Source of the DNA: Arcobacter aquimarinus
GTDB lineage: Bacteria; Campylobacterota; Campylobacteria; Campylobacterales; Arcobacteraceae
Length of the DNA: 64,000 nucleotides
Assembly (NCBI RefSeq): GCF_013177635.1
Contig: NZ_CP030944.1
Coordinates: forward strand, 1,984,001 to 2,048,000
Direction: 5' to 3'
In this document: piece by piece, positions 35,125 through 49,732 of the stretch
Numbering within the stretch: the first letter of the stretch is position 1
How the letters are laid out: every line of letters begins with the position of its first letter
Made by a program: the position numbers and the translations under genes
Notes under the pieces: model-generated
What the model was told of the DNA's origin: nothing
What the model saw: the letters and a program-made list of their open reading frames with translations, nothing else
The model's database searches: none

Positions 35125-35823
35125 ATGAATAATGCTATGAAATTATGTATCTCTTTGGATTTACCAACAGTAAAAGAAAACCTTGAATTAGTAGAACAAA
35201 TCAAAGATTTTGATGTATGGCTAAAAGTTGGTTTTAGAAGTTTTATAAGAGATGGAAAAAAGTTTTTAGAAGATTTAAAAGCTATAAATCCAAACTTTAA
35301 AATATTTTTGGATTTAAAACTTTATGATATTCCAAATACCATGGCAGATGCTGCTCAAGAAATAGCAAATTTTGGAATAGTTGATATGTTCAACGTTCAT
35401 GCAAGTTCAGGTGTAGAAGCCATGAAAACAGTGATGGATAGAATCAAAGATATTCCAAATAAACCTTTAGTTCTAGCAGTTACTGCTCTTACCTCTTTTG
35501 ATAATGATAGTTTTAAAGCTATCTATAATGAAGATATAAATACAAAAGCAACACAATTTGCAATAGATACTTTTGAATCAGGAGTTGATGGAGTTGTTTG
35601 TTCTGCGTATGAAAGTTTTGATATAAAAAATAACACTTCAAAAGAGTTTATCACTTTATGCCCTGGTATTAGACCTTTTGGTGAAGAAAGTGGTGATCAA
35701 AAAAGAGTTGCAAATATTCCATTTTCGAAAGAAAATTTAGTTGATTTTATAGTTGTTGGAAGACCTATATATAAATCTGAAAATCCAAAAAAAGTAGTAG
35801 AAGAGATATTAAAAAATATTTAA
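35125..35823 (+). CDS. pyrF: Orotidine 5'-phosphate decarboxylase
   Basis: 232 aa TIM-barrel enzyme of pyrimidine synthesis: LDLKLYDIPNTMADA (catalytic Lys and Asp), FNVHASSG, LAVTALTS and CPGIRPFG, then VVGRPIY. Start at ATG 35125, three bases after nusB. A second ATG four codons later is also possible. Confidence 0.95.
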   Translation: MNNAMKLCISLDLPTVKENLELVEQIKDFDVWLKVGFRSFIRDGKKFLEDLKAINPNFKIFLDLKLYDIPNTMADAAQEIANFGIVDMFNVHASSGVEAMKTVMDRIKDIPNKPLVLAVTALTSFDNDSFKAIYNEDINTKATQFAIDTFESGVDGVVCSAYESFDIKNNTSKEFITLCPGIRPFGEESGDQKRVANIPFSKENLVDFIVVGRPIYKSENPKKVVEEILKNI

Positions 35824-35844
35824 TATCTCTTTTTTATATTTTAA

Positions 35845-43012: not shown

Positions 43013-43051
43013 AATGATAAGTGATAAAATCATTCACTTATCATTTCTTTT
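43013..43051 (+). terminator. Terminator after murA
   Basis: 12-bp perfect stem AATGATAAGTGA / TCACTTATCATT with a 9-base loop, then TCTTTT. Confidence 0.7.
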
Positions 43052-48432: not shown

Positions 48433-49143
48433 ATGATAGATAAAGTATTTAATAAATCAATTACAAAACAATTCGAATTTGATGAAGAAGTAGCATCAGT
48501 ATTTGATGATATGTTAAACCGTTCTGTTCCTTTTTATAAAGAGATGCAAAGATTATCAATAAATTTTGCTTGCAATTTTTTAAATGAAAATGACAAAGTT
48601 TATGATTTAGGTTGTTCAACTGCTTCAACGCTAATAGAACTAAGTCACCATTGTAAAAATAATCTAAAACTAATAGGAATTGATAACTCTGTTGCTATGT
48701 TAAATAGAGCAGCAAAAAAAGCAAAAGCTTTTGGAGTTGACATAGAGTTTATAAATGCTGATTTACATGATGTTTCTTATGATGAAGCAAAACTTATTCT
48801 TTCAAACTACACTTTACAATTCATTAGACCTCTACAAAGAGAAAAATTAGTAAAAAAAATATATGATTCACTACAAGATAAAGGTATATTTATTTTTAGT
48901 GAAAAAGTGATATCTTCAAATTCAACTTTAAATAAACAATCTATTGATGAATATTATGAATTCAAAAAAACTCAAGGTTACAGTGAATTTGAAATAGCTC
49001 AAAAAAGAGAAGCTTTAGAAAATGTACTTATACCTTATACTGAAGAAGAAAATAAAAAAATGATTTTAGATGCTGGATTTAGTCATTGTGAAACAATTTT
49101 CAAATGGGTAAATTTTGCAACATTTATAGCAATAAAAAAATAG
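48433..49143 (+). CDS. cmoA: Carboxy-S-adenosylmethionine synthase
   Basis: 236 aa SAM-fold protein: [20 protein letters not shown] at the N-terminus is the CmoA signature, with [16 protein letters not shown] and LSNYTLQFI. Uses SAM and prephenate to make carboxy-SAM for wobble-uridine modification. cmoB is not adjacent. A small terminator follows. Confidence 0.93.
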
Positions 49144-49148
49144 CAAAG

Positions 49149-49168
49149 GCTTTATTTTAAAGCTTTTT
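49149..49168 (+). terminator. Weak terminator after cmoA
   Basis: GCTTTA-TTT-TAAAGC stem followed by five T. Confidence 0.5.
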
Positions 49169-49185
49169 CAAATTAAAAAATAATG

Positions 49186-49219
49186 GTTCCCTTTCAAATT
49201 GGGAACTAATTTGAAAGGA
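49186..49219 (+). promoter_or_regulatory. Two mutually exclusive hairpins over the peroxiredoxin ribosome binding site
   Basis: Hairpin 1: GTTCCC (49186-49191) with GGGAAC (49201-49206). Hairpin 2: CCTTTCAAATT (49190-49200) with AATTTGAAAGG (49208-49218), 11 bp and a 7-base loop. Hairpin 2 pairs most of the AAGGA Shine-Dalgarno (49215-49219), and hairpin 1 frees it. They share bases and cannot both form. It could instead be a double DNA operator. Confidence 0.6.
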
Positions 49220-49225
49220 AATATG

Positions 49226-49732
49226 ATGTTAAAAGTTGGAGACATAGCACCTAGTTTTTGTGCACCAAATCAAGATGATGTAGAGATTTGTTCAAGAGAT
49301 TTAGCAGGGAAATGGATAGTTTTATACTTTTATCCAAAAGATTTAACACCAGGATGTACAACTCAAGCTTGTGATTTTACAGATAAACACTCTTTTTTTG
49401 ATGATTTAGATGCAGTAATTTTAGGTGTTAGTGCGGATGATACTGAAAAACATAGAAAATTTATTGATAAATATGATTTAACAATAACTCTTCTGTCTGA
49501 TACAAATAAAAAAATGTGTGAAGATTATGGAGTTTGGCAGTTAAAACAATTTATGGGTAAAGAGTTTATGGGAGTTGTTAGAAGTACATTTATTATTAAT
49601 CCTGAAGGAAAAATTGCAGCTATTTGGGATAAAGTAAGTGTTAGAAAGAAAAAGAGTGTAAAAGGTGAAAAGATAGAAGTTTTACATGTGGATGAAGTTA
49701 GAGAAAAACTTCAAGAATTACAATCAAATTAA
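49226..49732 (+). CDS. bcp: Thiol peroxidase, Bcp-type peroxiredoxin
   Basis: About 168 aa: LKVGDIAPSFCAPNQDD, YFYPKDLTPGCTTQACDF with peroxidatic Cys in PGCT and the resolving Cys five residues later, GVVRSTFIINPEGKI. Reduces peroxides in the cytoplasm. The frame extends to TTG 49199. ATG 49223 and 49226 follow AAGGA, and 49226 has the better spacing (6 bases). The leader contains paired inverted repeats. Confidence 0.93.
   Translation: MLKVGDIAPSFCAPNQDDVEICSRDLAGKWIVLYFYPKDLTPGCTTQACDFTDKHSFFDDLDAVILGVSADDTEKHRKFIDKYDLTITLLSDTNKKMCEDYGVWQLKQFMGKEFMGVVRSTFIINPEGKIAAIWDKVSVRKKKSVKGEKIEVLHVDEVREKLQELQSN

Follow-up and report, generated by a model that had tools for sequence, protein, structure and literature searches.

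The site described here lies between a cmoA-like methyltransferase gene and a Bcp-like peroxiredoxin gene in a 64,000-nucleotide stretch of Arcobacter aquimarinus DNA (hereafter the window; Table 1). Two perfect inverted repeats precede the peroxiredoxin gene, one of 6 bp formed by segments 1 and 3 and one of 11 bp formed by segment 2 and AATTTGAAAGG at 49208-49218. The arms of the two repeats interleave, and thus the corresponding stems, A and B, are mutually exclusive, confirming the coordinates and the overlap given in the original prediction. The longer repeat also sequesters the Shine-Dalgarno sequence, as had been proposed: stem B pairs AAAGG of the AAAGGA at 49214-49219, just 5′ of ATG 49226 and of an in-frame ATG at 49223. 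The 45-nt RNA covering the site has a predicted folding energy of -14.7 kcal/mol (z -3.9) with the Shine-Dalgarno sequence closed. Two other details of the original prediction needed correction. The intergenic space is not about 55 bases, since the distance from the cmoA stop codon to ATG 49226 is 82 nt, and the hairpin read as a cmoA terminator is actually H1, the first hairpin of the same element.

Table 1. Features at the cmoA-bcp gap, in window coordinates.
Feature	Position	Strand	Description
Upstream methyltransferase gene (cmoA-like)	48433..49143	+	Stop codon directly 5′ of H1
H1 hairpin	49145..49167	+	AAAGGCTTTATTTTAAAGCTTTT; directly 3′ of cmoA stop; terminator-like; first module; from fold prediction
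Linker	49168..49184	+	Short; in full copies CTTTAGRNTTTTG and the long hairpin H2 occupy this place; H2 missing here
Segment 1, stem A 5′ arm	49186..49191	+	GTTCCC; elsewhere GTCCC, GTTCCC or GGTTTCC with matching 3′ arm
Segment 2, stem B 5′ arm, anti-Shine-Dalgarno	49190..49200	+	CCTTTCAAATT; locus-specific, covaries with segment 4
Segment 3, stem A 3′ arm	49201..49206	+	GGGAAC; within the stem B loop
Segment 4, stem B 3′ arm and Shine-Dalgarno	49208..49219	+	AATTTGAAAGGA; predicted paired 10-50 °C
Downstream peroxiredoxin gene (AhpC/TSA, Bcp-like)	49226..49732	+	Pfam AhpC-TSA E 1e-38; start kept in relatives

The peroxiredoxin gene begins with two in-frame ATG codons (ATGATG, 49223-49228), only the second of which is kept in most relatives. 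A weak -10-like AATAAT is present at 49179-49184; the RNA start that it implies would fall near 49190, cutting segment 1. A terminator on the minus strand was considered and rejected, as this would simply be the reverse of stem B and there is no notable minus-strand gene at the site.

Over 60 rounds of dinucleotide shuffling, the plus strand of the window yielded 15 perfect 6/11 interleaved repeats (~0.25 per 64-kb strand), and thus the geometry alone is weak evidence, whereas its recurrence elsewhere is strong evidence. The real plus strand contains three separate sites of this kind (1151, 43013 and 49190). A chance palindrome at 49186-49226 is ruled out by the recurrence of the site in a family of copies, although the geometry itself is fairly common. 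Other perfect palindromes with interleaved repeats are found in the window at 1151-1181, 43013-43045 and 35802-35840, the latter two resembling ordinary terminators.

We obtained the same locus from 30 of the 31 genomes of the genus. A complete pair of interleaved stems, which we term the switch, lies between cmoA and the peroxiredoxin gene in six of these 30 loci, one further locus having a broken form and another a remnant of segment 4. The original prediction was to be abandoned if the arms were not conserved in close relatives: the nearest relatives (L002-L004, with 98-99% protein identity) indeed have no element and a gap of just 9-17 nt, but more distant ones keep it. The compensatory changes for which it proposed to search in relatives are present, strongly in stem B and more weakly in stem A, both sides of stem A having changed jointly to GGTTTCC/GGAAACC in the bcp orthologue L026. 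The sister copy L009 has also lost H1 and has one mismatch in stem B. H2 is present at this site in other species, as a short form in L019 and L026-L028 and as a full hairpin in L065 and L160. In other genera (L065, L150 and L160) the same architecture with different arms precedes the peroxiredoxin gene, for example as GGTCCC-TTTTTATTA-GGGAC-TAATAAAAAGGA. Over the whole family, a switch satisfying strict rules is found at 10 of 100 bcp loci (a few genomes possibly being counted twice), the bcp tree requires at least eight changes in its presence, and the gap at empty sites is mostly 9-28 nt. Apparent remnants of the switch 5′ of bcp in L147 and L017 (segment 4 with or without segment 3) suggest that it has been lost repeatedly.

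The site belongs to a dispersed family. The pattern CCCTTT-GGG-AAAGGA has matches in 63 of 104 Arcobacteraceae genomes, while a reversed control gave zero in most of these. A covariance model built from ten loci (R1) yielded at least about 550 matches (summed from the table of matches) at E up to 0.01 in 79 of the 104 genomes, and up to at least 26 in a single genome; these counts are lower bounds because the number of candidates scored in each genome was limited. Unconfirmed R1 matches occur outside the Arcobacteraceae in two genomes (G400 and G410). A full copy is ~110 nt long and is composed, in order, of H1 after the upstream stop codon, a CTTTAG linker, the long H2, an A-rich linker, the switch, the Shine-Dalgarno sequence and the start codon, often with ~17 nt between the upstream stop codon and CTTTAG. 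At 39 of the 43 loci with enough upstream sequence, the element shares its strand with the gene preceding it, which suggests read-through, and H1 often starts right at the stop codon of that gene.

The genome of A. aquimarinus contains five full copies in addition to the window copy, as judged by R1, and a single occurrence of the full window pattern. The window copy has the interleaved stems, with the Shine-Dalgarno sequence in stem B directly 5′ of the start codon, and H1 after the stop codon of an upstream same-strand gene. It is missing the CTTTAG linker and H2, and so is a truncated copy rather than a full member of the family. When it is aligned to R1, two bases stand against 34 model positions, and this deletion of H2 explains its weak score of 35.1 bits (E 7e-5 for the window and 0.003 for the whole genome). 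A model of the H2 core alone, built without the switch (R2), does not match the window significantly. Having no H2, the window copy may be partly decayed.

R2 provides a test of the association that is independent of the switch. In three Arcobacteraceae genomes it identified 23 sites, every one of them followed by a Shine-Dalgarno sequence and an open reading frame, and 19 by a strict stem B. The proteins encoded downstream of family members fall into 60 groups, representing at least 60 kinds of genes. They include transaldolase, IspH, P-II, HypA, HypB, rubredoxin, threonine synthase (ThrC), GatC and HisA, as well as CysD, CysK, ObgE, MnmA, urease alpha, NifU-like, EngA-like GTPase, thioredoxin and AccD-like proteins. 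The interleaved architecture with different arms is also found 5′ of accD. Orthologous copies persist across genera, and, tandem pairs excepted, the divergence between copies is much the same within a genome as between genomes. We also note that hypA, hypB, ureC and a NiFe hydrogenase gene are among the downstream genes.

Some loci depart from the standard arrangement. Tandem ~110-nt units precede one gene at L240:1389-1600, L327:73-281, L228:1501-1711 and L358:712-860, and in three of these the Shine-Dalgarno end is gone from the outer copy. A recurrent CTCAAAGAGAGTGCAAGCACAAG-like insertion separates the CTTTAG linker from H2 in L204, L376, L378 and L192. Longer insertions that leave the outer pairing intact are present inside H2 in L253/L370 near 1501-1636 (before transaldolase in the A. 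aquimarinus genome itself) and inside the stem A loop in L365 near 1560-1640.

Stem B is maintained by covariation. Across 97 distinct loci, which contain 44 distinct inner arms, 91% of its inner seven pairs are Watson-Crick when each arm is matched with its own partner; exchanging partners among loci at random lowers this to 62% (at most 67% over 2000 shuffles). The observed value is somewhat inflated, since stem B is part of the model used to select the loci, and at least 7 of 11 pairs were required of each, a bias which the R2 test avoids. In the seed alignment the covariation score was reached by none of 500 shuffles, and the pair counts agree with the stem B result. In stem A, GTCCC/GGGAC predominates and the variants are matched; the stem is longer with its own partner (5.33) than with shuffled partners (4.91, maximum 5.11 in 200 shuffles). 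By this sequence comparison the covariation of stem A is real but weaker than that of stem B, and modest, and GTCCC/GGGAC could be kept for a reason other than pairing. The closed state has a median predicted energy across loci of -10.7 kcal/mol and the stem A state of -8.3 kcal/mol, with a median difference of 3.0 kcal/mol in favour of the closed state. The predicted probability that the Shine-Dalgarno sequence is unpaired has a median of 0.27, and at many loci is no more than moderately low.

We consider it probable that the window site represents, in truncated form, a dispersed Arcobacteraceae RNA element whose bistable tail lies over the Shine-Dalgarno sequence and hides or exposes it. Stem A could form first on the emerging RNA, by pairing of segments 1 and 3, leaving the Shine-Dalgarno sequence free. 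Stem B (segments 2 and 4), which at the median locus is predicted to be favoured by ~3 kcal/mol, would then pair the Shine-Dalgarno sequence and shut off initiation. The element would in this way reduce translation of the downstream cistron, set its timing and uncouple it from that of the upstream cistron. From the computed structure and its recurrence, the covariation of stem B and, more weakly, of stem A, and the position over the Shine-Dalgarno sequence, we infer that the two stems exchange in the cell and that this exchange affects protein output.

The choice between stems A and B might be set by a global regulator or metabolite that binds H1-H2, a tentative proposal that refines the translational switch reading rather than opposing it. 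In its favour, the unpaired CTTTAG..TTTG and the H2 bulge are strongly conserved across families, with variable stems. The tail likewise resembles the expression platform of translational riboswitches, which similarly comprises two exclusive stems of close predicted energy, one of them hiding the Shine-Dalgarno sequence. However, these platforms differ from the present element, which has no known ligand or pathway, is intercistronic, has no Rfam match and precedes dozens of unrelated genes. No common pathway, the mark of a metabolite riboswitch, was found among the 60 downstream protein groups, and the window copy keeps its tail though H2 is absent.

H1-H2 has a wider range than the switch. 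Outside the Arcobacteraceae, R2 has matches in two families (f10 and f20), which their gene content suggests are Campylobacteraceae and Sulfurospirillum-like members of the Campylobacterales. The H2 sites in these families include infA and the region flanking mature 16S rRNA on its 5′ side, and none of the 20 loci examined there has a switch; among the R1 and R2 loci examined, the switch is seen only in Arcobacteraceae. In three families, H1-H2 lies directly 5′ of mature 16S rRNA and, in antisense orientation, directly after the 23S 3′ end before 5S (L349:1108 and 8264 on the plus strand, L350:4223 on the minus strand, L356:5597, and L393 near 1500). Two Campylobacteraceae-like genomes contain 9 to 21 dispersed H1-H2 repeats in both orientations. 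In L352, L353, L354, L355 and L357 from the genomes G145 and G158, near-identical H1-H2 copies are accompanied by further repeated hairpins in long non-coding stretches, with some copies forming inverted pairs and, in G145, lying near flagellin genes.

This distribution in other families, beside rRNA genes and in both orientations, suits a mobile repeat no less than a regulator, and implies that H1-H2 may be a repeat or mobile element. Taken further, it raises the possibility that H1-H2 is itself the element, a REP- or MITE-like mobile DNA repeat inserted near gene and rRNA boundaries, the pairing of the tail being a by-product or local adaptation with no role in regulation. The patchy occurrence at the cmoA-bcp gap, with its many state changes and short empty sites, would fit such an explanation, as would the tandem copies. 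We nevertheless regard it as doubtful. The H2 matches tested in Arcobacteraceae are all 5′ of a gene and in one orientation (23 of 23), copies within a genome, tandem pairs aside, differ from each other about as much as copies between genomes, the B arms vary from locus to locus yet remain complementary, and orthologous copies are kept across genera. Furthermore, no transposase was seen in the loci read, and the Arcobacteraceae sampled showed no copies that had dispersed recently. A scenario joining both views, which we put forward as an unlikely speculation, is that a mobile or formerly mobile Campylobacterota H1-H2 hairpin gained the bistable tail in Arcobacteraceae, with the anti-Shine-Dalgarno arm fitted to each target, so giving a portable translational switch that places many operons under one global signal.

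The original prediction had offered a translational switch or a thermosensor. The first part is supported by the exclusive predicted hairpins that hide the Shine-Dalgarno sequence and by the paired changes in relatives. The second, in which heat would melt stem B and free the Shine-Dalgarno sequence, is very improbable: the Shine-Dalgarno sequence does sit in an AT-rich hairpin, but predictions keep it closed at 10 to 50 °C in the window copy, and for the most part also in the majority of the other bcp copies, the downstream genes are mostly housekeeping genes, and a thermosensor has no need of an alternative stem such as A. Because the element precedes gatC, ispH, hisA, thrC, cysK, mnmA and accD, and the window copy is predicted to be stable to 50 °C, neither a thermosensor nor a dedicated peroxide switch is supported, and nothing links the element to peroxide. 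The dyads do lie close to the peroxiredoxin start, but that they form a bipartite DNA operator recognized by a peroxide regulator, PerR or another, is scarcely credible, because the arms vary in sequence from locus to locus with just their complementarity preserved, little sequence being shared besides TCCC/GGGA and the Shine-Dalgarno sequence, spacing varies among bcp orthologues, and the element also precedes genes unrelated to oxidative stress.

Dispersed structured intergenic repeats are familiar from the ERIC/RUP, NEMIS/Correia, BOX and REP sequences, to which the candidate mobile or repeat sequences of PMC11109978 may be added. The present element shares with such repeats a length of ~110 nt, many intergenic copies, strong palindromes, a patchy distribution and tandem copies. 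In contrast to them, it is 5′ of a gene in one orientation (in Arcobacteraceae, where tested), it has locus-specific arms that covary with the Shine-Dalgarno sequence, and its copies within a genome have low identity to each other. An Rfam search of the window region at E up to 1 gave one match, far below the gathering score, and full copies matched nothing in Rfam except rRNA, 5S and tRNA. Stav et al. 2019 (PMC6429828) examined intergenic regions of Arcobacter sp. L and mention unnamed, genus-confined motifs; the relevant passages of their main text describe no motif like the present element, and overlap with the unnamed motifs of the supplement is possible. The core sequences occur in none of the paper texts searched, and the literature searched contains nothing matching on Arcobacter repeats or structured RNAs. 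Both an RNA that hides the Shine-Dalgarno sequence and a dispersed structured intergenic element are thus known kinds, and it is their combination here that appears to be new.

If our interpretation is correct, one RNA element sets the translation of dozens of unrelated operon genes across a bacterial family, forming a post-transcriptional layer that the literature searched does not describe for Arcobacteraceae. The ~550 locus-specific copies with complementary arms (a lower bound) constitute a natural set of matched switches for testing the control of translation by alternative folds over the Shine-Dalgarno sequence.

The 5′ arm of H2 (TTTGCTACTTTAG / TTTGGTTCTTTAG) resembles boxA of the boxB-boxA antitermination sites in rRNA leaders. 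The likeness extends to context, in that the arm follows a hairpin and in one genome occurs just 5′ of 16S rRNA. The H2 arm differs from them in being paired in a covarying hairpin and in occurring also in antisense orientation after 23S rRNA.
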